DNA from: Mycolicibacterium sp. | GTDB taxonomy: Bacteria; Actinomycetota; Actinomycetes; Mycobacteriales; Mycobacteriaceae | Direction of reading: 5' to 3' | DNA length: 64,000 bases | NCBI GenBank assembly: GCA_020637165.1 | Contig: JACJWN010000005.1 | Coordinates: 357,578-421,577 of the forward strand | Shown here: positions 49,523 through 64,000 of the stretch, in pieces | Layout of the letters: every line of letters starts with the position of its first letter | Position numbering within the stretch: position 1 is the first letter of the stretch | Notes under the pieces: generated by a model | The model's input: the letters and a program-made list of their open reading frames with translations, nothing else | What the model was told of the DNA's origin: nothing | The model's database searches: none | Position numbers and translations under genes: made by a program

Positions 49523-52500
49523 TCAGCCCGGCTGACCGTCAGAACCAGGGCTGCCCGTCGCCCCGCCGGAGGCTCCACCGGTACCGCCGGGAGCCCCGTT
49601 GCCCCCACTAGCACCGACTCCATCTGTTCCGCCGGCGGTCGCAATGCCGCCGCTGCCGCCGTCGCCGCCGCCACCACCCGACCCGCCGTCGCCGCCAGGG
49701 CCGTCGGTGGAGTTGCCTCCGTTGCCCCCGCTGCCGCCGGTGCCGCCATTGCCGCCGGTGCCGCCGTTGCCGCCGGTACCGCTGGTTGCCGTTCCGCCGT
49801 CACCGCCGCTGCCCCCGGATGCGCCGGAACCGCCCTGACCGCCCGGGTGTCCGCTACCGAAGAGCTCGTTACCGCCGTCTCCGCCGTTGCCGCCGCCACC
49901 GCCACCGCCGCCGACACCGCCGTCGCCGCCGTTCAAGCCGTTGCCGCCGTCTCCGCCGCCGCCCCCGGCGCCGGCGGTCCCACCGTTGCTGCCGTTGAAG
50001 GCCAGGGTGGCGTTGGTCGGGCCCACGCTGCCGCCGTTGCCGCCGGCACCACCGGCGCCGCCGTCACCGCCGTCACCGTCGTTGCCGTTGATTCCCGCGC
50101 CACCGTCACCGCCCCGGCCGCCCGCCCTGCCCGCGGTGCCGCTGCCCCCGGTGTACCTCGTGCCCGGTATCCCTGGCCAGCTGGCGGTTCCGCCGGCGCC
50201 GCCGGCGCCGCCGTTGCCGCCGTTGCCGCCGTCGCCGCCCTTGAAGCCGGTCCCGCCGGTTCCGCCGTTGCCGGCGGTGCCCGCGGTCCCGGCGTTGCCG
50301 CCGTTGTGGCTGCTGATGTCCTCAGGGTTGCCGCTGCCGCCAGTGCCGCCGTTGCCGCCGTTGCCGCCGTTGCCGCCGTTGCCGGTCACGCCAGTGGCGC
50401 TGATGCCGCCGTTGCCGCCGACACCCCCGTTGGCGCCGTTACCGGCGCTGCCCCCGCTACCTCCCGAGGCTGTTTGGCTGTAGCGCCCGGCACCACCGGC
50501 GCCGCCGTTGCCGCCGTTGCCGCCGGCACCACCGTTGCCGCCATTGCCGCTGGTTGCCGTACCGCCGTTGCCGCCTGTGCCGCCAGTGGTCCCGGAACTG
50601 CCGTTCCCACCGTCATATCCAGTGCCAATAGCCGTTCCGGCCTGGCCGCCTGCCGCGCCGTTGCCGCCGGCACCGCCGGCCCCGCCGTCGCCACCGTTCA
50701 AGCCGTTGCCGCCGTCACCGCCGTCTCCTGCAGCACCGGCGGAACCGGCGCTGCTGCCGTTGGTGGCCAGGGTGGTGTTGGTCGGGCCGACACCACCGGC
50801 ACTTCCGCCGGCACCACCGGCGCCTCCGTCACCGCCGTCACCGTCGTTGCCGTTGATTCCCGCGCCGCCGTCACCGCCACGACCACCCGCTTGACCAGCG
50901 CTGCCGTTACCGCCCCGGTACGGCGACCTGAACTCCCCTGGCCAGCTGGCAGTTCCCCCGGTGGCGCCGTTGCCGCCGGCACCGCCGTTGCCGCCGTCAC
51001 CGCCCTTGAAGCCGGTCCCGCCGTTGCCGCCGTTGCCGGCGGTGCCCGCGGCCCCGGCGTTGCCGCCATTGTGGCTGCTGGATTCATCCGGGTTGGTTCC
51101 GCCGCCGGCTCCGCCGTTGCCGCCGTTGCCGCCGTTGCCGCCGTTGCCGGTCACACCAGTGGCGCTGATGCCGCCGTTGCCGCCGGCACCCCCGTCGGCG
51201 CCGCTGCCGGCCGTGCCGCCATTGCCGCCGTCGGCAGAAAAGACGTTCACGCCTACGCCGATGTTGCCGTTCCCGCCAGCTCCGCCGGTGCCGCCGGTGC
51301 CTCCGTTGCCTCCGTTGCCGCCCGTGCCGCTGGTTGCGGTGCCGCCGTCGCCGCCGCGGCCGCCCGCGGTGCCGGAGCTGCCGCTGCCGCCGTCATAGCC
51401 ACTGCCGGCGACGCCCTTGCCGCCGTTGCCGCCGTTGGCGCCGTTGCCGCCGTTGCCGCCAGTTCCGCCGTCGCCGCCGTTCGCGCCGTTGCCGCCCGCG
51501 CCGCCGGCTCCCGCAGCGCCGGCGGCTCCGGCGCTACCGCCGTTCTGGAAGCTGGTGTCGGTCACGACGCCACCACCATTGCCGCCGTTGCCGCCCGCGC
51601 CGCCGGCTCCGCCGTCACCGTCGTTGCCATCGATGCCCGCACCGCCGTCGCCACCGCGGCCGCCCGCCGTCCCGGCACTGCCGGTACCGCCATTCCAGGG
51701 CCCCACGAATTCCCCGGCCCAGCTGGCCAGGCCGCCAGCGGCGCCGTTGCCACCGTTGCCGCCGTTGCCGCCGTTGCCGCCCCGGAAGCCGCCACCGCCG
51801 TTGCCTCCATTGCCGGCAGTGCCCGCCGCACCGGCGTTGCCGCCGTTGCGGCTGGTGCGGTTGTCATTGGTGGCCAAATTTCCGCCGCCGTTGCCGCCGG
51901 CACCGCCGTTGCCGCCGGCCCCGCCGTTGCCGGCCACACCGGAGGCGCTGGTGCCTCCGGTGCCGCCCTCACCGCCATCGGCCCCGTTGCCGCCGGCTCC
52001 GCCGTCACCGCCGCTGCCAACCTCGCCGATGTTGCCGTACCCGCCGTTGCCGCCCCCGCCGCCGGTGCCGCCCACGCCGCCGTCGCCGCCGTTGCCGGTG
52101 CCGGCCGCGACACCGCCCTGTCCGCCTCGCGCGCCGGCGCTGGCGTTCCCGCCTTGATTTCCGGCGTAGCCATCCCCGGACCACCCCGGACCCAGAATGC
52201 CCACGCCGCCGTTGCCGCCGTTGCCGCCCGCGCCGCCGCTGCCGCCCACACCGCCGTTGCCGCCGTTGCCGGTGTTGTAGCCCGTACCCCCGGTGCCGCC
52301 CACGCCGGCCGTCCCGGCCGCACCCCCGATGCCGCCGTTGCCGCCGCCGTTGCCCCCAGCGCCACCGTTGCCGGCGTTGCCGCCAGCGCCGCCGACGCCG
52401 CCGTTGCCGCCGCCGACGCCGATCTGACCGCCGTTGCCCCCGGTGCCGCCCCTGCCGCCATCGGCGCCGGTTCCGCCGGTGTGGCCGTCGGTGCCGCCGC

Positions 52501-55500
52501 TGGTTTCGCCGCCGAGTCCGCCCCAGCCGCCGCCGCCGCCGTCGCCGCCGGCTCCACCGTCGCCCGCGGCCCCCGTACCGGCGCCGCCGGTTCCGCCGTT
52601 GCCCCCGTTGCCGCCGGTTCCGCCGTCGCCGCCGCTACTTCCTGAGCTGCCGTCGAATCCGTTGCTGAGCCCGCTGAAGCCGGCGCCGCCCGCCCCGCCG
52701 GTGCCGCCGCCACCGCCGCTTCCGCCGGTGCCGCTGCCGGTACTCAGGCCGCCATTGCCGCCGTCGCCTCCGAGGCCGCCATCGCCGGCGCTGCCGGCCG
52801 TTCCCAACGGGGCGCCGGCAGCACCGTTGGCGCCGCCCGCGCCACCGGCTCCGCCGTTGCCACCGTTGCCGCCGGTGCCCGCGTTGCCGCCGTTGCCGTT
52901 GCCGTTGGTCGTTCCGCCGTTGCCGCCGGCGCCGCCCGTCGCGCCGTCGCTGCCGTTGCCGCCGCTGCTGCCCACCGGGGAGGTGTAGGTGTCGCCGGAG
53001 CCGCCGTAGCCGCCATAGCCGCCGTTACCCCCCGCGCCGCCGGCGCCGCCGTTACCGCCGCTGACGGCGTACCCCATGCCGCCGTTTCCACCGACGCCGC
53101 CGGCCGCGGCCGTACCGGCGTCGCCGCCGACGCCGCCGGCGTTGCCGCCGACGCCGCCGTTGCCGGCAGAGCCGCCCACACCGGCGGAGCCGCCGTTGCC
53201 GCCGAGGGCCCCGCCGAGGCCCGCGTCGCCGCCGTTGCCGCCGTTGCCGCCGATGGCGCCGTTGCCGCCGTCACCGCCCCTCTCCTGATAGCCGCCGGCG
53301 CCGCCCGCGCCGCCGCTACCGCCGTCGCCGCCGATTCCCCCGGCGCCGCCGTTGCCGCCCACGCCGTCGGTACCGGCGCTGCCGGCGGTGCCGCCCTCGG
53401 CGACGCTGCCAGCCGCCCCGCCGGCGCCCGCGTTGCCACCGGTACCGCCGTTGCCACCCGCGCCGCCCGCGGTGCCGTTGCCGCCGTTGCCGCCCGGGGG
53501 GCCGTCCGGGAGATCAGTGCCGTTGGTCCCGGCGATGCCGCTGACTCCCGCCCCGCCGTTGCCCCCTGCGCCGCCGGCCGCACCGTTGCCGCCCATGCCG
53601 CCGCTGCCGGCGATTCCACCGTTGGCGGCGCCACCGCGACCGCCCGCGCCGCCGGATCCGCCCGAGTAGCCGGTGCCACCGGCGCTGCCGGCCGCCCCCG
53701 CCTGGCCGCTCGCTCCGACCCCGCCGTTGCCGCCGTTTCCACCGAGACCACCCACACCGGCGGCGCCGACCGCCCCGCCGGTTCCGATTCCGCTCCCCGC
53801 CGACCCGGACCTGCCCGCGGCGCCGCCGTCAGCGCCCGAACCGCCATCGAAACCGGCCCCGCCGGCATTTGCCCCGGCGTTGCCGCCGTTGCCGCCGTTG
53901 CCGCCCAAGCCGCCCCGGCCGCCGCTGCCCCGGATACCGCCGAGGCCCGCGTCGCCGCCGTCTCCGCCGATGCCGCCGGCACCACCGGAGAATCCGTCGG
54001 TGCCGTTGCCGGTCGTCGGCGACGTGCCGTTGGCTCCGGCGCTGCCGTTGCCGCCGTTGCCGCCGTTGCCGGCCACACCGGCGTTGCCCGCGCTGCCACC
54101 GGTACCGGTCCCGGCGCCGGCGGTGCCGCCGTTGCCGGCGTCGCCCCCGTTGCCGCCGTTGCCGCCGTCGAAGCCGGCAGCCCCACCGTTGGCGGGGCCG
54201 TTGCCGCCGTTGCCGCCGTTGCCGCCGTAGCCCCCCTGGCCGCCGCTGCCCCGGGTGCCGCCGTCCCCGGCGTCGCCGCCGTCGCCGCCCAGGCCGCCAT
54301 TGCCGCCGGCGTAGCCATCCGTTCCCGCGCCGCCGACTCCCGCGATGCCGCTGGCTCCCGTGCCGCCATTGCCGCCGTTGCCGCCGCTGCCGGCCACACC
54401 GGCAGTGCCCGCGGTGCCGCCGCTGCCCGTCCCGGACCCGGCGGTGCCGCCGTTTCCGGCGTTGCCGCCGTCGCCGCCGTTGCCGCCGTCGAAGCCGACG
54501 CCGGTGCTGCTGGCGCCGTGGCCACCACGGCCGCCGTATCCGCCGGCCCCGCCCTGGCCGCCGCTACCCCGGGTGCCACCGTCCCCGGCGTCGCCCCCGT
54601 CGCCGCCGTTGCCGCCGTTGCCGCCGGCGTATCCGTCGGTGCCGTCGCCGCCGTTGCCGACGACACCGTTGGCGCCGGCTGAGCCGTATCCGCCGTTACC
54701 TCCGCTGCCGGCGGTGCCGGCGGTGCCGGCAGTGCCACCGGTGCCCGCCCCGGTACCCGCCGTGCCGCCGTTTCCGGCGTTGCCGCCCTTGCCGCCATCG
54801 CCGCCGTCGAAGCCGGTGGTCCCGGTGTTGCTGCCGGCGTTGCCGCCGGCCCCGCCCTGGCCGCCGTTGCCGCCAATGCCGCCGTCACCCCGGGTGCCGC
54901 CCGCCCCGGCCGTGCCGCCGTTGCCGCCCTGGCCGCCGTTGCCGCCGGCGTACCCGTCGTTGCCGTCGCCGGTGAGCACCGCGGTGCCGGCGGCGCCCGC
55001 GCTGCCGCCACCGCCGTTGCCGCCGTTGCCGGCGAAGCCGGTGGCCCCGACAACCCCGTCGGCTGCCAGGCGGGCGCCCGCACCGCCGCTGCCGCCGACG
55101 CCGGCCTTGCCGCCGTTGCCGCCCTTGCCCCCGTCGAATCCGTTGCTGGCGTTGACCGTTGCCGCGTTGCCGCCGTTGCCGCCGATCCCGGCGTTGCCGC
55201 CCTTGCCGCCGGCCCCGCCGGCACCGTCGGTGCCCGCGAGGGCACTGCCCGCCCCCGTGCCGCCGACGCCGCCGGCGCCCCCGACTCCACCGCTGCCCGC
55301 GTTGCCGCCGTTGCCGCCGGCGCCGCCGGCCGCGCCGTCACCACCCGCGCCGTCGGTGCCGGAGGCGGCGCTGCCCGCCCCGGTGCCGCCGAGGCCGCCG
55401 CTGCCGCCCCGGCCGCCGTCGCCGCCGTTGCCGGCGTCGCCACCGTCGCCGCCGTCGGCTCCGGGGGTGGCGCCGTTGGCGCCCTGATAGCCGTATCCTC

Positions 55501-58500
55501 CGTTGCCGCCGGCCCCGGCGTTGCCGCCCTTGCCGCCGGCACCTCCGGAGCCGTCGGTGCCCGCGAGCGCGGTTCCCGCACCGGCTCCGCCGGCCCCGCC
55601 GGATCCTCCGCGCCCGGCGTTGCCGCCGTTTCCACCATTGCCGCCGACCCCGCCGGCGGCCGACGGGTCGGTGCTCATCGAGCCGGCCGCGCCGATTCCG
55701 CCGAAGCCGCCGTTGCCGCCGACGCCGCCGGCCGCGCCGTCGCCGCCCACGCCGTCGGCGCCGGAGGCGGCGCTGCCCGCTCCGGTGCCGCCGAGGCCGC
55801 CGTCGCCGCCCTGCCCGCCGTCACCGCCGTTGCCGGCGTCCCCGCCGTCTTCCCCATCCGCTCCGGCGCTGGCGCCCACTGCGCCCTGGGTTCCGTTGCC
55901 GCCGTTGCCGCCTGTTCCGCCGCCGCCGCCCTTGCCGCCCGCGCCGCCGGCGCCGTCGACACCCGCCGGGGCGCCCTCGCCGCTGGATCCCGCGATGCCG
56001 CCGGCACCACCCTGGCCGCCGGCGCCGCCCCGACCGCCGTCGCCACCGTCGAGGGAGTCGCTGGCGCCCCCGACTCCGGTGGCGCCCCGGCCACCCCGGC
56101 CGCCATTGCCGGCGGCACCCCCGACGCCGCCGGATCCTCCGACGCCCGCGGCACCGCTGCCGGTGCCGCCGAGACCGCCGGCGCCGCCGTTACCGCCCAT
56201 GGTGCCGCCGGTCCCGGTGCCGCCCGGCAGCGTTGCGTCGATGCCGTTCGCGCCGGTGGCGCCGGCGCCACCTTTTCCGCCCGCGCCGCCGTTGCCCGCG
56301 CCGCCGGCGTCGCCGCCGTTGCCGCCCATGCCGCCGTTGCCGCCGTTGCTCGACGCTGAGGCCGTGCCGCCGTTGCCCCCGGAGCCGCCACGGCCGCCCG
56401 CACCGGAGGTCGCGCCGCCTGCGCCGCCTGCGCCGCCGGTGCCGCCGTCGCCGCCGCCCGGACCGCCCTGACCGCCGTTGCCGCCGCTTCCGCCGGCGCC
56501 GATGGATCCGCCGTCGCCGCCGTCGCCGCCACTGCCTCCGGTTCCTGCCGCGGTGGTGCTTGCGGCGCCGTCGCCGCCCCTGCCGCCGCTGCCCGCGACG
56601 CCGGTCACCGCCAGGCCGCTGCTTCCGGTGGAACCCTTGCCGCCGCCGGTCCCGCCGGTTCCGGCCGCACCGCCCGATCCGCCGGCACCCGCGGTTCCGG
56701 GGTTGCCGCCGGCGCCGCCGCGGCCGCCGTGTGAGGTCTGGGCGTCACCGGCCCCGCCGTTGCCGCCGTCGCCGGGACTACCTGCGGCGCCACCCTTGCC
56801 GCCGGTGCCTCCGGTGCCGTTGACACCAGCCGTGTCAAAAAGCAGCAGGCTGCGTCCGCTGCCCGCGTTGCCCCCGGCACCGCCGGTGCCGCCATCGGCG
56901 CCGTTGCCGCCGTTGCCGCCCGCCCCGCCGGTCGCGCCAGCCACGGTGGCATCGGCGCCGGATTGGCCGTCGCCGCCGTCGCCGCCTTCGCCGCCGGCTC
57001 CGCCGGCTCCGCCGTTGCCGCCGGAGCCGAAGATGATGCTGCCGTTGCCGCCATTGCCCCCGGCGCCGCCCTTGCCGCCGGTAGTGCCGTCGGTACCCGA
57101 TCCGCCGGCCAGGATCGCACTGGTGCCGGTGGCTCCGGTGCCGCCAGCTCCGCCCGAGCCGCCGGTACCGCCTTGGCCGAATATCGAGAGCGTGCCCACG
57201 TTGCCGCCGTTGCCGCCGTTGCCGCCGATGCCCATCGGAGAGGTCGCCGCCGCACCGGCGCCGCCGTTTCCACCGGCTCCGGTGAACAGTCCGCCTGATC
57301 CGCCACGGCCACCGGAGCCCGCGTTGACGCCGAGGATCCCCGCGCCGCCGTCGCCGCCGCGGCCGAACCACCCTGCCGCGCCGCCGTTTCCGCCGTTGTA
57401 GCCGTTGCCGCCGTTGCCAAAAATCCCGCCGTTGCCGCCGGTGCAGGCGAGGCCGCCGGTGCAGGTCTCGGCAGTCCATGAGAATCCGTTGCCGAACAGG
57501 ATTCCGCCATCGGGGTGTTCGGCGGTGCCGTCACCGAACAACCAGATGTCGCCGATCGCGACGGCGGAAGCCGCCGATGCCTGAACCGCTTTCGTAGTGA
57601 CACTCACCACCGGGGGGGCTGTCGTGCCGGCGCCCGCCGTATCCGGTGGGCTCGGGTCGACCGGGTCGCTGGACGAGGCGGGGGAGGCGGCGAGCCTCGC
57701 GACCGGTCCGCCGGACAAGTCCCGGCGAACCAGCCCGAGTGCGGCCCACATCTGCGGGGAGGAACCCGGTTCGTCCCCGCCACCGCTGCCGAACTGGGCT
57801 CCGAATCCCAGCCAGGACAATAGTTTTGAGTTCCATCCGTACGCGCTGTCGGATGCCACGGCGGCAGTCGGTGCGGTGGCCATCGGCACTGCGGCGGCGT
57901 CCACCGTCACCGGCGGCACCGAGACGGCGTCGGAGACCGCCGGCACGGCCGTCGACGGGGTTGCCGCGGCGTCGACGGCGACCGGCACCGTGGCGATCGT
58001 GACTCCGGCGACATCCGCGGATGACACGGCCGCCGCGGGCGGCGGTGTCTGCTCACGAAGAGCCTCGGTCGGAACGGACAATGCCGCGGAGCCGGACCCC
58101 CGCTGTCGGGTCGGCCTCGCCGATGGGCCACCCGACCGCTTCGGGGCCGATCCCGCAACGGTGTCCGTGGTGCCGGCCCTCGGCGACGACCCGACGGCCG
58201 CGCCGTCGCCGGGATCCGTCGAGGCCGGCCCCGGCGCCGCTGCCGGGCGACCGCCGCGAGGCCCCGCGTGCGCCCGCGTCGCGGGGCCCGTCGCCGTGGA
58301 CGAGTCTGCCTGCGAGGCCGATCCCGCCGAACCCGTGGAATCCGCGTAGGCCAGTCCGGGCAGCGAACCGATCCCGGCGCCGATGCCGAGTGCAATGGCC
58401 AAGGCTCCGACGCGGCCCACGTTCCTCGCGTTGCCGGATTCGGCGAACTTTGCTGCGCCGGCCACCGACTGCACCACCCGAATCCGCAGGCCGGAGTCCG

Positions 58501-58627
58501 GTGCGCGATGGCGACCGCCTCGCCCGGCGCGGTGACGACCCGGCCGGTGAGCGTCCGCGGGAAACGGCACGGCAGGGGCTGACACCATGGCACCGCCGGC
58601 GGTGCCGACGGAAAAATCAGGCTTCAT
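49523..58627 (-). CDS. Giant PE-less PGRS-like secreted protein (3034 aa)
   Basis: Start ATG at 58627 with GGGGGAG eight bases upstream; an in-frame extension to 58933 lacks one. Long basic N-region, hydrophobic core [17 protein letters not shown] and AYA cleavage near residue 94. Then about 260 residues of Ser/Ala/Pro linker. The shared module [21 protein letters not shown] plus a CTGGLAC Cys pair is at about 57.4-57.5 kb. About 2,550 residues of GGN/GGA/GGD triplet repeats follow to the stop, with higher-order units of about 320 and 770 bp. No PE domain. Calcium-binding or wall-associated behaviour of PGRS regions is known elsewhere; its role here is unknown. Confidence 0.85.
49800..52100 (-). 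repeat. About 770-bp higher-order repeat, three copies
   Basis: The anchor A-S-W-P/A-G occurs once per unit at about 50177, 50942 and 51719 (spacing 765 and 777 bp, i.e. 255-259 residues). Each unit carries [11 protein letters not shown](N/D)GNDGDGG, then GGTATSG; the ATGVTGNGG and SSHNGGNAG stretches are clear in two copies. Units are near-identical in places, so recent duplication is likely. Confidence 0.8.
53650..54990 (-). repeat. About 320-bp repeat, five copies
   Basis: The text [11 protein letters not shown] (or GFSGG/GYSGG) followed by [15 protein letters not shown] and FDGGNGG recurs at about 54950, 54629, 54311, 53990 and 53664. Spacing is about 320 bp (105-108 residues). Confidence 0.75.
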
Positions 58628-58779
58628 GTGATTTTCTCCCCCACCGGGAACGGCATACAGAGCACTGCGTCGCATCGAACCACTTCCGGGGCCCCGCCAA
58701 CGCCGAAACGCCGACAATGGGCCGGGTCGCGTCGAGGTTGAGTTGCCGCGTCCCGAATCGGCTCGGGGCCCTCGGCCGG

Positions 58780-58795
58780 TGTGATATAACTCACC
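58780..58795. promoter_or_regulatory. CRP-type box between the two giant PGRS-like genes
   Basis: TGTGATATAACTCACC fits TGTGA-N6-TCACA at all but the last base. It is 153 bp before the minus-strand start (58627) and 175 bp before the plus-strand start (58970), so one site can serve both. The 342-bp gap shows no gene. Confidence 0.65.
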
Positions 58796-58969
58796 GCTAG
58801 CGTTTGCTGCGTTGAGGGCGAAGGCAGGGTTGGAGGGGGTTGTTTCTGCCCATGGTTTGCCGTGGGGGAACACCATATCCCTCTGGTCCTGACTCTCTGG
58901 TCTTTGCCGTGAGCGGCGAGGTCGTGCTGGCACAAGGCGTGCCGATCAGGTGGCCAACGGAGGTCGGTG

Positions 58970-61900
58970 ATGTGCCCAGATAACGTCTCCCGTCGAGATC
59001 GCCGAGCCGACGGTGCCAAGCAGCACGGCGCACGCCATCGCCCCGCAACCGGGACGCTACGAGTCACCCACGACAGCGCGGGGCGCTGGCATCTCACCCC
59101 GGCACCGCGCCCCACGCATTTCGTGGGTCGCGTCGGCGCGCTGGCCATTGCACTCGGCATCGGGGTCGTGATCGCAGAACTTCCGGCCGTCGCCGCAGCG
59201 GACCCGGGCCCGGTGAACGGGGCAGGATCGACGCAGAGTTCAGGTTCGAGCGACTCCGCGGCGGGCGCTGCCAGGCAGCGCGGCGGGACGCGGTCCGGGG
59301 CCCAACGCGCCACCGGTGCCCCTGCGGCGGGCGGTCCGGCCGATTCGGCGGCCGGCGGTCCGGGGGCCGGTCCCAGGACCGGAGTGGCGGGTCCGAATCG
59401 CCGGACACGGGTGGTTCGACCCCCGGCCGATGCGGTCGCCGACATTGCCGTCGGCGGCATCGCGGGTCCCGGCGGCATCAGAGTCGGCGCACCCCCCGAC
59501 GGCGGTTCGGCCACCGTCCCGGCGTCGGGGGACGACGTCGGCACGAACCCGGCTGTGTCGTCGCCTACCGAGTTTGCTGTTGTCGCGCCCCGCCAGTCCG
59601 CTTCGGCTGACGAAGCCCGGTTGCTGGAGAGGGCGCTGGCCGGCGATTCCTCCGCTGACTCCCCGCCGGGCGGCGCGGGGGATGGATCGCTTTCGGCGGT
59701 GGTCCTCACCGAGGGCGTCGCGGTGGAAGTGGCGACTGCCGAACCGCCGGTGATGACCGCGGCGGAACCCAAGGGTGAGGTCTCGGGCTCCGACCCCCTC
59801 ACGCGATCGGGGTCCGGCGAGGATTCGCTGCCCGGCAACACACCCCTGGTCCTGGCGTCGCAGGCACTGGTGGCGGCGTGGGCGGGCCGGCGCGAATCGC
59901 GCACCACCGTCTCGGCGGTCATGCCGGCGGCGGCTGCCGGCACGGGAGAGCCGGCGGCGCCAGCGGCCCCAGTTGCCGAGGGTGCAGCCACTGAGAGTGC
60001 GGCGCCCGAGAGCGCAGGGCGCGAAAGTGCTTCCACCGCAATGGAATCCGCATCAGCGGCATCGGCCGATCCGATCGCCGCGCTGATCCGGTTCTTCGTC
60101 GGCGACGGCACCGCCGACAACCCTAACGCGGGCATTCTCTACGGCAATGGCTACAGCTTCACCGAGTACGGCGGGACCTGTACCTCGGGTGCCTGCGACG
60201 GCGGCAACGGCGGCCTCATCGGCAACGGCGGCGACGGTTTCAACGGTGGCAACGGCGGGGCGGCCGGATGGTTCGGCAACGGCGGCGCGGGTGGCGCCGG
60301 GGTCGCCGGCGTCAACGGCGGGGCGGGCGGCAACGGCGGCCGGGCCGGGCTGTTCTCCGGCGACGGCGGCAAGGGCGGTGACGGCGCCGCGGCAACCGAC
60401 CCGACCGGTGACGGTGGCGACGGTGGCGACGGTGGCGACGCCGGGATGTTGTCATCGAGCGGTACGGCGGGCGCGGGCGGAACCGGCGGCAGCAGCGGGG
60501 TCTCCGGTGGCTCGGGCGGGCACGGCGGTGCCGGCGGTGATGCCGGACTGCTCGGCTCCGGTGGTGACGGTGGTGACGGCGGCGTCGGCGTGGAGGCCGG
60601 CGGGGCGGGTGGTGACGGCGGCGCCGGCGGCTTCATCGGTGGAGACGGCGGCGACGGAGGGGTGGGCGGCACCTCCACGCTGACTCCCGCGAACCGGGGT
60701 GCATCCGGCTCCGGTGGTGCCGCAGGGGCGCTGTTCGGCAGCGCCGGAATCGATGGACCCGCTGCCGAAGAGATCGGCGTGGACGTGCCGCTGGCGGCCG
60801 CCGCTGCCCCGGATCCTTACTCCGGCAACGTGATCGCCGCAGCCGTCCAACTCTTCCAGAGCGAGATCACCGCCGCCATCGAGTCGTTCGTCGCGGGTGC
60901 CTCTCCGATCGTGCTGCCGCCGAATATTCTTTCCCTGATCGGGAACGTCGGCTACAACATCCTGCTCAACGTGGTGGTCGGGTACTGGCCGGGCGTCATC
61001 GCGGCCTTCAATGAACTCGTCTACGACCCCGCGTTCCTGCCGTTCGTCTCCGACGAGGTCGCCACCCTGCTGACGCCTGAGGGGGAGACCCCCACCGCTC
61101 TGAGTGCGACTATCGGCAACGCCGTGGCGTATCTCATCGAGCAGACCCTCGGCAACCCGATCATCCAGCAGGGGCTGGCCTACTCGGTGTTCACCCAGAT
61201 TCCGCCGTTCACGGCGGCGGGGATTGTCGAGTGGGTCAGCCTCCTCATCGGGGAGGGCGGCTTCTCGGAAGCCATCGCCTATCTGCTGAACAACGGCGTG
61301 CTGTCCGGACTCGAGGTCTTCTTCGGCAGCCCGGCGGTCCAGGTGCAGATCGGCACCGCCCTGGCGGGCACCGTCAACGTCGTATTCGGCCAGATCACAC
61401 CGGATTTCGTGACCACCCCTCCGCTGGAAACCCCGGCCCTGGCAACGTACGCCGGCGAGTTGATCGCCACCGCTCTGCTGGGGGAGGGCAACCCCGGCAT
61501 CCCGGAGGTCGCCGCGGTCGCTTCCGCCGACGTGGCCTACCTCCTGGCCGTTATCTCCAATCCGCTGAGCACCCTCATCGGAACCACCTACCAGCAGTTC
61601 ATGCTCTACCCGGGGGTGGGCACCTACCTGGCGACCACCGCGATGAACACCCTGCTCGCCGCGCTGGGTCAGCCGACCCGGCCGATCGGTTCCATAGTGG
61701 TCCCGGTCGAAACCGTCGTCACCCAGGCCGTGAACTCGTTCCTCAGCAGCTCCGCGCTGTTCGGAGCGGTCGGCGATTTCATCACCCAATTGGCCACCGA
61801 TCTCGTTGCCAATTCCACGGTGCAGGAGTTCGCCAGCCAGACGGTCGCCGACTTCGTCGCCACGACCCTGGGCGGCGATCCGCTGGCCGTCGCCGTCGGC

Positions 61901-64000
61901 GCGCAGGCCGGTGGCGTGGTCGTCTCGCTGATGGCCAATTCGAATTTCGTGGGCCCCGTGGTCTTCGCGTTGGTGTCACTGGTCGAGGGCATGAACAACC
62001 CCAACGTGTCCGGTGCGATCGCGGCGGCGGCAGGGGCGATCGCGGGCAACCTGGTCGGCCCGGATCCACTGCCGCTCATCGAGCAGATCCAGGCCGCCGT
62101 GGCGGAGCTGCTGCAGGAACCCGCCTTCCAGGACGTCCTCGTCGGCAACGTCACCTCGGTCGTGCGCACGCTGCTGAGCACCACGGGGTTCTGGACGGCG
62201 TTGGGCGGTGGGCTCTCGGGGTTGGTGACCGGACTCGCCGGTGACAACACCGTGCAGGTCCAGGCCGCCGATGTGGTCGCCACGATGATCGCCGAAATGC
62301 TGCCCGGCAGCCCCATCGCCGCGGCCGTCGGTTCGGCGGTGGGCAACGCGGTCGAGCAGCTGCTGGCCAATTCCGCGGCGGTGGCCGGGGTGGCCACGTT
62401 GCTGGGCTCGGCGCTGCCGGACTTCTTCGGCCAGACCGGGGTGCCCAGCGTGCTGGCCGACGCGGCCGGCCAGTTGGTGCTCGCCGCCGTGAACGGCACC
62501 CTGGACGCCGTCCTGCCCCAGGTGATCGCGGCGCTGCAAGCCAATACCGACATTCTCAACGCCGTCGACGTGACCGTCGCCGACGTCGTCACCGCCCTGT
62601 TCAGCCCCTCGATACTGCAGGGCGCCAGCCTGGCCCTGTCCGGTCTGGTCGCCGATCTTATCGGCGACCCCACCATCCAGACCTACGCAGACCAGCAAGT
62701 CGCCGAGACGGTGGCGACACTGCTGGGCGGCGGCCCGGCCGCGGTGCTGGTCGGTGACGCGGTCGGCAACGCGGTGGTCCAGATCCTGACCGTTCCGGCT
62801 CTGGGGACCGCCGTCACCGGAGTCGTCGACACGATCTTCGGGTTCTTCAGCCAGCCCGATGTGGTTCCGACGCTGGCCACCACGGTGGGCCAGTTCGCGT
62901 CGGCCGTCGTGTCCGGGGAGGACTTCAACGCGGCCCTGGCGATCGCCGTGTTGGCTCTGCAAAGCAGTACGGCGATTCTGGGAGCCGTCCGGACGACCGC
63001 CTCGGACGCGGTGCTGACGGTTCTGGGGGATTCCCAGCTGTGGGGCGGCATCGGTCTCTCCCTGAACGACCTGATCACCGGACTGGGCACCGACCCGGCC
63101 CTCCAACTGGCTGCGGCCCAAGGGGTTTCGGATTTCGTGGCTTCGATGCTGGCGGGCAATCCGCTGGCCGCGGTGATCGGCGACGCCGCCGGGAACGCGG
63201 TGGCGGGCTTCCTGGCCGCCCCCGGCGGAGTGGTGGAGCTGGCCGCACTGGCGGGTGGGTTGCTGCCGGATCTGTTCGGCCAGCCCGGATTCTCCGCCGA
63301 GATCGCCGATGCGGTCGGTGCGGCGGCCGAAGCGCTGGCCTCCGGTCAAGACTCCACGACGGTGATCGACGCGCTGATCGCAACGCTGCGCTCCAGCAGC
63401 GTCATTCAGGACGGCCTCGGCGGCTTCACCACCGACGCCCTGACCGCACTGTTCGGTGACAGCGCGGTGTGGACCGCGGCGGGCATCAGCCTTGCCGGGC
63501 TGATCACGGATCTGGGCACCGACGCCGAGGTGCAGCAGTACGCGGCCGAGACGGTGTCAGCTCTGGTGGTCAGCCTGCTCGGTGACCTTCCGGTCGCCCC
63601 GGTGGTCGGCGATGCGGTCGGCGCGGCGGTGGCCGGTTTCCTGGCCACCCCGGGCGCGGTGGCCAACCTGGGTGCGGTGATCGGCGGGCTGGTGCCGGAT
63701 CTGTTCGCCCAGCCGGGACTCGGGGCCGAGATCGCCGGCGCTGTCGGCACCGCGGTCTCGGCGCTGGTGGCCGGGGAGGACACCACCACGGTGATCGACG
63801 CGCTGATCGCCACGCTGCGGGCCAGCACGGTGGTTCAGGACGGTCTGGGCGGCTTCACCGCCGACGCTCTGAGCGCGTTGCTCGCCGATATGACGCTGTG
63901 GACGGCGGTCGGTGCCAGCGTTTCCGGGCTGATCACCGACCTGGGCACCAACGCCGAGGTTCAGCAGTACGCGGCATCGACGGTGTCGGCGTTCGTGGTC
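58970..64000 (+). CDS. Giant PGRS-like exported protein with 143-residue C-terminal repeats (cut by window end)
   Basis: At least 1677 aa, open to the right edge; ATG at 58970 has GGAGG at 58959-58963. Basic N-region, core [17 protein letters not shown] and VAAAD cleavage. About 290 residues of linker, then the shared module RFFVGDGTADNPNAGILYGNG with a CTSGAC Cys pair near 60.18 kb. A Gly-rich stretch runs to about 60.75 kb. From about 60.8 kb it changes to hydrophobic, helical-looking sequence, with repeats of about 143 residues from about 61.8 kb: GDAVGNAV..FLA, LPDLFGQPG, TTVIDALIATLRSS, GLITDLGTDAEVQQYAA. No known family was recognised for these repeats. The frame was checked by eye at several points. 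Confidence 0.8.
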   Translation, partial: MCPDNVSRRDRRADGAKQHGARHRPATGTLRVTHDSAGRWHLTPAPRPTHFVGRVGALAIALGIGVVIAELPAVAAADPGPVNGAGSTQSSGSSDSAAGAARQRGGTRSGAQRATGAPAAGGPADSAAGGPGAGPRTGVAGPNRRTRVVRPPADAVADIAVGGIAGPGGIRVGAPPDGGSATVPASGDDVGTNPAVSSPTEFAVVAPRQSASADEARLLERALAGDSSADSPPGGAGDGSLSAVVLTEGVAVEVATAEPPVMTAAEPKGEVSGSDPLTRSGSGEDSLPGNTPLVLASQALVAAWAGRRESRTTVSAVMPAAAAGTGEPAAPAAPVAEGAATESAAPESAGRESASTAMESASAASADPIAALIRFFVGDGTADNPNAGILYGNGYSFTEYGGTCTSGACDGGNGGLIGNGGDGFNGGNGGAAGWFGNGGAGGAGVAGVNGGAGGNGGRAGLFSGDGGKGGDGAAATDPTGDGGDGGDGGDAGMLSSSGTAGAGGTGGSSGVSGGSGGHGGAGGDAGLLGSGGDGGDGGVGVEAGGAGGDGGAGGFIGGDGGDGGVGGTSTLTPANRGASGSGGAAGALFGSAGIDGPAAEEIGVDVPLAAAAAPDPYSGNVIAAAVQLFQSEITAAIESFVAGASPIVLPPNILSLIGNVGYNILLNVVVGYWPGVIAAFNELVYDPAFLPFVSDEVATLLTPEGETPTALSATIGNAVAYLIEQTLGNPIIQQGLAYSVFTQIPPFTAAGIVEWVSLLIGEGGFSEAIAYLLNNGVLSGLEVFFGSPAVQVQIGTALAGTVNVVFGQITPDFVTTPPLETPALATYAGELIATALLGEGNPGIPEVAAVASADVAYLLAVISNPLSTLIGTTYQQFMLYPGVGTYLATTAMNTLLAALGQPTRPIGSIVVPVETVVTQAVNSFLSSSALFGAVGDFITQLATDLVANSTVQEFASQTVADFVATTLGGDPLAVAVGAQAGGVVVSLMANSNFVGPVVFALVSLVEGMNNPNVSGAIAAAAGAIAGNLVGPDPLPLIEQIQAAVAELLQEPAFQDVLVGNVTSVVRTLLSTTGFWTALGGGLSGLVTGLAGDNTVQVQAADVVATMIAEMLPGSPIAAAVGSAVGNAVEQLLANSAAVAGVATLLGSALPDFFGQTGVPSVLADAAGQLVLAAVNGTLDAVLPQVIAALQANTDILNAVDVTVADVVTALFSPSILQGASLALSGLVADLIGDPTIQTYADQQVAETVATLLGGGPAAVLVGDAVGNAVVQILTVPALGTAVTGVVDTIFGFFSQPDVVPTLATTVGQFASAVVSGEDFNAALAIAVLALQSSTAILGAVRTTASDAVLTVLGDSQLWGGIGLSLNDLITGLGTDPALQLAAAQGVSDFVASMLAGNPLAAVIGDAAGNAVAGFLAAPGGVVELAALAGGLLPDLFGQPGFSAEIADAVGAAAEALASGQDSTTVIDALIATLRSSSVIQDGLGGFTTDALTALFGDSAVWTAAGISLAGLITDLGTDAEVQQYAAETVSALVVSLLGDLPVAPVVGDAVGAAVAGFLATPGAVANLGAVIGGLVPDLFAQPGLGAEIAGAVGTAVSALVAGEDTTTVIDALIATLRASTVVQDGLGGFTADALSALLADMTLWTAVGASVSGLITDLGTNAEVQQYAASTVSAFVV
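61750..64000 (+). repeat. About 429-bp tandem repeats (five or more copies)
   Basis: The text (V)ATxLGGxPxAxxVGxAxGxAV recurs at about 61867, 62297, 62720, 63147 and 63577, spacing 423-430 bp. The last two units are the most alike: GGTGATCGACGCGCTGATCG occurs at 63361 and 63790, exactly 429 bp apart. The window ends inside the series. Confidence 0.85.

Follow-up and report, generated by a model that had tools for sequence, protein, structure and literature searches.

What kind of protein is encoded by a gene that joins a Gly-rich head of the PGRS type to a long hydrophobic repeat, and does it belong to a family already described? The question is raised by an open reading frame at the end of the window, that is, the whole stretch of 64,000 nucleotides analysed here (contig C28 of the source genome G000, positions 357578-421577). 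The observation made in a preliminary description of this locus was confirmed by our analysis and its interpretation was partly supported. The repeat array protein represents a real and apparently undescribed family, which is novel as a family and not as a principle. We put at about one half the probability that the product of this gene is an exported rod, variable in length and anchored in the envelope.

The open reading frame at the contig end

The composite reading frame is open at its 3' end and the contig ends exactly at the end of the window, so that its stop codon lies beyond reach (Table 1). The GC content by codon position in the array was 69.9/48.6/88.2%, indicating that the frame is coding. 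The hydrophobic stretch near the N-terminus is a putative signal peptide, and a similar stretch is common to the family members and to the neighbouring PGRS gene. A linker separates it from the Gly-rich segment; the linker end of one short relative was of low confidence in a predicted structure model. The pattern GG[ANDTVSIL] matched 30 times within aa 379-611, revealing GGA-GGX repeats of the PE_PGRS type. The helical part follows the Gly-rich part, as had been described, and begins at about 60800 (aa 612) rather than at 60750.

Table 1. Features of the repeat gene and its neighbour, numbered from the first nucleotide of the window
Feature	Position	Strand	Basis
Divergent neighbour, giant PGRS-like ORF (3136 aa as listed)	49523..58933	-	ORF list, head alignment
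Composite-protein ORF	58967..64000	+	1678 aa, cut by contig end; GGAGG a few bases before GTG/ATG
Extended N-terminal region and signal-like hydrophobic stretch (...AVAAADP)	58967..59203	+	Sequence
Low-complexity linker, Ala/Ser/Pro/Glu-rich	59204..60100	+	Sequence
PGRS-like Gly-rich segment, opening with GDGTADNPNAGILYGNG	60101..60799 (aa 379-611)	+	98 Gly in 233 residues
Start of hydrophobic region, ahead of first recognisable unit	60800..60991	+	Autocorrelation, unit profile
Unit 1, divergent	60992..61393 (aa 676-809)	+	Unit profile (weaker match); tree
Unit 2, divergent	61409..61759 (aa 815-931)	+	Unit profile (weaker match); tree
Unit 3	61766..62182 (aa 934-1072)	+	Unit profile
Unit 4	62198..62605 (aa 1078-1213)	+	Unit profile
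Unit 5	62621..63031 (aa 1219-1355)	+	Unit profile, AlphaFold2 model
Unit 6	63047..63460 (aa 1361-1498)	+	Unit profile, AlphaFold2 model; 63% identical to unit 7
Unit 7	63476..63889 (aa 1504-1641)	+	Unit profile, AlphaFold2 model
Unit 8, cut off by contig end	63905..64000 (aa 1647-1678)	+	Unit profile

After the Gly-rich part, the lag autocorrelation of the protein peaked at 143 residues (score 0.12, robust z 7.6), and in the last 650 residues the score at this lag was 0.80 (z 9.6); the best score over all lags in 200 shuffles was -0.32 or lower. The reported junction of a PGRS-like head with a 143-residue repeat is thus real. A unit profile detected five clear copies, two divergent copies ahead of them and a cut-off eighth, in agreement with the earlier count of at least five, and the motifs assigned to the repeat (GDAVGNAV, LPDLFGQPG, VIDALIATLR and GLITDLGT) are present in the translation. 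The copies nearest the window end are the most alike, as had been noticed: units 6 and 7 share 63% protein identity, whereas the other pairs in the window share 17-43%. Gaps were counted in these comparisons of divergent units; DNA identities leave gaps out, which inflates divergent pairs, and were used for close pairs only.

Of the 1067 residues in the hydrophobic region from aa 612, 5 are Lys/Arg and 83 are Asp/Glu, and the GRAVY value of the region is 0.83. When three units of the window were modelled by AlphaFold2 with 59 homologous triples, seven helices were predicted in each 143-residue unit (pLDDT 89.5, pTM 0.73), and equivalent helices were 142-144 residues apart in 13 of the 14 comparisons (136 in the other). 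The array is predicted with confidence to be an all-helical repeat, as the preliminary description had proposed from the sequence. Further, a 21-residue sub-period (lags 21, 42 and 63) was seen on averaging six arrays. Exact harmonics of 143/7 fitted this sub-period poorly, and the helix spacing of the model agreed with it, 14 of the 20 steps being 20-22 residues and the others 15 or 24. None of the known solenoids, such as HEAT, ARM or TPR, matched the predicted repeat, and the fold matches were at chance level; the giant solenoid proposed in the preliminary description is a candidate shape.

The amphipathic signal at 100 degrees was 0.73, compared with 0.58 +/- 0.02 in 20 shuffles, and only 2.6% of the 19-residue segments of the array had a hydropathy above 1.6, suggesting that the helices are amphipathic rather than classical transmembrane helices. 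These properties bear on the main rival of a soluble rod. Because the helices are unusually hydrophobic and poor in Lys/Arg, the array may be a lipid-binding or membrane-embedded structure, the hydrophobic faces of which would bind or store envelope lipids such as mycolates, or would lie within the outer mycomembrane; more units would then provide more lipid capacity or a longer hydrophobic path. Given the amphipathic helices and the chance-level fold matches, we regard this as possible, though on balance doubtful.

Searches against known families

The window protein matched no family of Pfam-A in hmmscan up to an E-value of 1, and hence has no PE domain; the GRPLI string was also absent from it. 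Secretion that depends on ESX-5 is a criterion for PE_PGRS proteins. Their definition, in the passages of PMC7550000 that deal with it, includes a GRPLI motif between PE and PGRS. Since it has neither the PE domain nor GRPLI, the window protein is not a PE_PGRS.

No curated Pfam or NCBIfam cut-off was reached by the window protein, by the two family ORFs on contig C29 of the source genome or by five further members. Known adhesive and stalk domains were likewise represented by no Pfam family above the cut-off in these proteins, the window protein being taken as it stands with its 3' end missing. The PDB held no credible sequence match to the repeat family. In the open-licence PMC literature, we found no description of this 143-residue repeat family and, for mycobacteria, no length-variable exported repeat family outside PE/PPE. 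The statement that the repeat belongs to no known family therefore holds for the curated collections and the PDB, and a match to a known Pfam family, which would have refuted the preliminary description, did not occur.

Several weaker matches would fit an array that was amplified within a remote branch of DUF445 (PF04286), a family of membrane proteins. Two members matched DUF445 in hmmscan below the cut-off (8.8e-6, 26.3 bits, and 8.4e-8, 32.9 bits; cut-off 33.8), and a purpose-built DUF445 profile gave 3.3e-7 for the whole of p2, a paralogue on C29 (L009:2558-10033), and 0.003 for the open tail on the same contig, the best single stretch of p2 reaching only E 1.3. However, DUF445 gave no hit in the window protein or p2 up to E 1, nor in four of the five further members up to E 0.1. 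In a profile-profile comparison (hhalign), the window array with 59 homologous triples matched 17 DUF445 proteins with a probability of 0.3% over 27 columns. The unrelated families PF00390 (4.3e-4) and PF19802 (3.1e-4) also gave sub-threshold hits on members. We consider a derivation from DUF445 very improbable.

Relatives of the gene and growth of the array

With the window protein as the query, 24 of 198 genomes of the genus matched, and with the C-terminal module described below, 49 of 396, including G562, which matched only at 7e-4 and with an internal stop. In an order-level sample, 4 of 298 genomes matched, all from the window's genus (1 of 76 genera), and in a phylum-level sample the unit profile matched 2 of 296 genomes (1 of 198 genera); the source genome is included in each of these counts. 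Thus, the search across genomes retrieved a family, which among the genomes sampled was seen only in the window's own genus. The named members of that genus are Mycobacterium and Mycolicibacterium. The titled records (29 loci, five of them labelled only at the level of Actinobacteria or Actinomycetota) comprise Mycolicibacterium litorale F4, M. sphagni, Mycobacterium pinniadriaticum, strains CH28, M26 and shizuoka-1, and many metagenome bins; we take the named host species to be mostly environmental.

The relatives form two rough classes. Short members of the family are about 725-1000 aa long, with four to six recognised unit matches, and have no PGRS part. Long members (1250-2824 aa) have six to seventeen unit matches and many of them carry a PGRS-like head, others, such as L070, L080 and p2, being without it. 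The full composite of PGRS-like head, array and C-terminal end was found as an open frame in G136 (2396 aa), G004 (2046 aa), G151 (2113 aa) and G098 (1780 aa). The number of recognised units was 12 in G136, 10 in G004 and 10 in G151, which are related species represented by one genome each. As a side observation, a strong charge bias was seen in the arrays of 47 family ORFs (L009 and L044-L090), in which Lys/Arg make up 0.3-4.7% (mean 1.9%) and Asp/Glu 2.8-11.7% of the residues.

The composite is not confined to this window but conserved among other mycobacteria, including genomes assembled in one to six contigs, and is therefore no assembly chimera. This also decides whether the gene could be an artefact, that is, a chimeric contig or a low-complexity translation of GC-rich DNA. 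Its position at a contig end would fit such an origin, as would the breaking of contigs by arrays in G000 and G182. However, the same order of head and array in independent assemblies, single-contig genomes among them, refutes it, and the strong codon-position bias and the DNA identity of 87-91% (gaps left out) between the units and those of an orthologue in G182 also speak against it. Its probability is negligible.

A conserved hydrophobic, Gly-patterned C-terminal module was present in all 19 uncut members fetched through the array; its presence in 34 of 34 members of the loci fetched through the module itself is by construction. Five further family ORFs are cut before it. The 17 members aligned for the module, which were chosen by a related motif, share the invariants Q.A.G...G.G.G.L.G.N and seven invariant Gly columns. 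In 41 of 42 members, the highest 19-residue hydropathy from the motif onward was greater than 1.6, the lowest value being 1.57. Between the motif and the C-terminus lie 53-162 residues, counting the hydrophobic stretch. On this sequence pattern, the segment is likely a membrane anchor in the relatives. Two more 3'-open repeat genes, L052:5670-10229 and L045:3595-8946, lie at contig ends with their upstream genes conserved; in L045, the two ORFs upstream of the repeat gene are Proton_antipo_M (NADH:quinone oxidoreductase/Mrp antiporter) proteins.

The divergent neighbour of the window gene, with which it lies head-to-head, has the same signal-like segment and the same GDGTA opening motif, and the two heads are 40.6% identical over 618 alignment positions. 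No repeat unit was found in this PGRS giant (best E 1). The similarity of the heads would suit a PE_PGRS-like antigen in which a Sec-type signal replaces PE, the head does the work, the repeat provides surface retention and the copy number serves antigenic variation. Parts of PMC7550000 describe PE_PGRS proteins as having unique C-terminal domains that vary, and the lipase domain of LipY as being preceded by PE, PPE or a signal peptide in different species. However, many short and long members have no PGRS part, so that the array is the constant part of the family. The named hosts, mostly environmental species, and the many metagenome bins also speak against an antigen, and we think this reading unlikely.

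Many short members are followed by a gene for a signal-like, Asn/Gly-rich protein (L059:8300-9814 and equivalents), which has no match in Pfam or NCBIfam. Of 198 genomes, 15 carry strong orthologues of this partner (E below 1e-90, a threshold set after the gap was seen), and every one of these 15 belongs to the 24 family-positive genomes (Fisher p 1e-16); any match was found in 19 of the 24 family-positive genomes compared with 22 of the 174 others (p 4e-11). Among the 15 genomes with strong copies, 11 have the partner 24-114 bases behind the C-terminal match of the short member on the same strand, which points to an operon-like pair. Elsewhere, it precedes a long gene on the same strand (G098), lies on another contig (G106) or is some kilobases off on the other strand (G156 and G009). 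No such partner was found upstream of the window gene, the downstream side being unassembled.

The closest relative of the window gene is the orthologue in G182, which is 90% identical over the last 745 residues of the window protein. Units 1-7 pair one to one with its units 1-7 at 82-93% protein identity. It had been suggested that the array may continue past the window, and in this relative it does: units 8-10 follow, with 94% identity between 9 and 10, before it too is cut by a contig end. The most similar units of the orthologue therefore sit in the 3' part, which the assembly of the window gene lacks. Since each of the last two whole copies in the window is orthologous to a single unit in G182, they do not stem from a very recent duplication. 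Thus, the suggestion of an expanding array is correct for the family, whose arrays expand by unit duplication, and not for these two copies.

A tree of 65 different units from seven genes, which carries a long-branch warning and leaves deep forks unresolved, grouped by position the first two units in all seven genes and the last two in the five uncut genes. Unit 1 of the window gene fell into one clade with the first units of the six other genes and unit 2 into one with their second units, as N-terminal caps, whereas most middle units grouped by species or close species group. In p2, six consecutive units are identical at 429 of 429 bases and the next copy is about 93% similar to them, indicating that the units were amplified very recently or are being actively homogenised. 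The positional clades of the caps, the lineage-specific middles and the duplicates in G182 and p2 together indicate that the arrays of the family grow in the middle between fixed caps. Downstream of p2 lies a Rv3169-family gene (L009:11109-12323).

The 794-aa open tail on C29 (L009:1-2385) was considered as the missing end of the window gene, a link that is unproven and that we rejected as improbable. At the C-terminus, it shares 63% identity with the adjacent p2, and it pairs in a tree with the G182 tail L062 (100/98). A 3'-open gene with a p2-like N-terminus lies at the end of contig C4, and its final 37 bases are 97% like the start of C29, although it is not proven that C4 adjoins C29. The source genome holds four family N-termini (C28, C4 and two on C29) and three C-terminal modules.

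Proposed role and comparison with known systems

Because lineages multiplied the units separately, the protein looks like a cell-envelope rod of adjustable length, and for such a rod we infer export, a surface location and adhesion. The long signal peptide, to which the conserved GRVGALAVALGVG...AxA segment points, would take the protein across the inner membrane. The PGRS-like head on its disordered linker would form the free distal part, judging from the order of the parts and from published PE_PGRS models. The body would be a run of 143-residue units, each with seven short amphipathic helices as predicted, that may stack into a continuous helical rod. The last units would lead into the Gly-patterned hydrophobic segment, which is known from members that reach their C-terminus and may anchor the rod in the membrane near this end. 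The pattern of the units suggests that the rod lengthens or shortens as internal units are duplicated or lost between conserved caps, with recombination of near-identical copies as the probable mechanism. The rod may serve to hold the head out through the thick mycobacterial envelope, or past it, and to tune surface properties or adhesion in free-living mycobacteria.

A bolder combination is also conceivable: the near Lys/Arg-free seven-helix units of these giant exported, mycobacteria-only proteins might form an envelope-spanning lipid-binding rod or conduit, with its length tuned by unit duplication between fixed caps, that works with the Asn/Gly-rich downstream partner of many short members. 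We hold this to be quite unlikely. The envelope-anchored rod would represent a repeat family not yet described in the mycobacterial envelope. With its fixed caps and lineage-specific middle, the array has a unit number that can be counted and tested as a trait. A first handle on partners is offered by the gene pair found with the short members. Because assemblies can cut such genes inside the array, the family may be under-reported.

The protein resembles the PE_PGRS proteins in its Gly-rich PGRS-type repeats, its mycobacterial host, its putative export signal and a unique domain C-terminal to PGRS (as outlined in sections of PMC7550000). It differs from them in having a signal-like N-terminus in place of PE and GRPLI, and a helical array that far exceeds the PGRS part in size and, in many members, occurs without it. 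The order of N-terminal head, repetitive stalk and putative C-terminal anchor recalls the fibrillar adhesins of Firmicutes and Actinobacteria (from the portion of PMC9210967 that describes them). In contrast to these, the family has no known adhesive or stalk domain, its stalk is helical, hydrophobic and poor in Lys/Arg, and its C-terminus is a hydrophobic Gly-patterned segment.

Length-variable exported repeat proteins have been studied in other bacteria (in extracts of PMC9704523). Like the periscope proteins described in parts of PMC9704523 (see also PMC8201768), the members are long and carry large tandem repeats, the units of which multiply with nearly the same DNA sequence while the ends are conserved. 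The repeats named in those parts of PMC9704523 are beta-sandwich or beta-helical, whereas a seven-helix unit is predicted here. Periscope proteins are recognised by a repeat number that varies among the strains of a species, by attachment to the cell surface and by tandem repeats that are longer than 50 residues and highly identical in DNA; the units of the window gene, whose 3' part is missing, are 17-63% identical in protein, and p2 shows exactly such repeats in its six identical 429-bp units.
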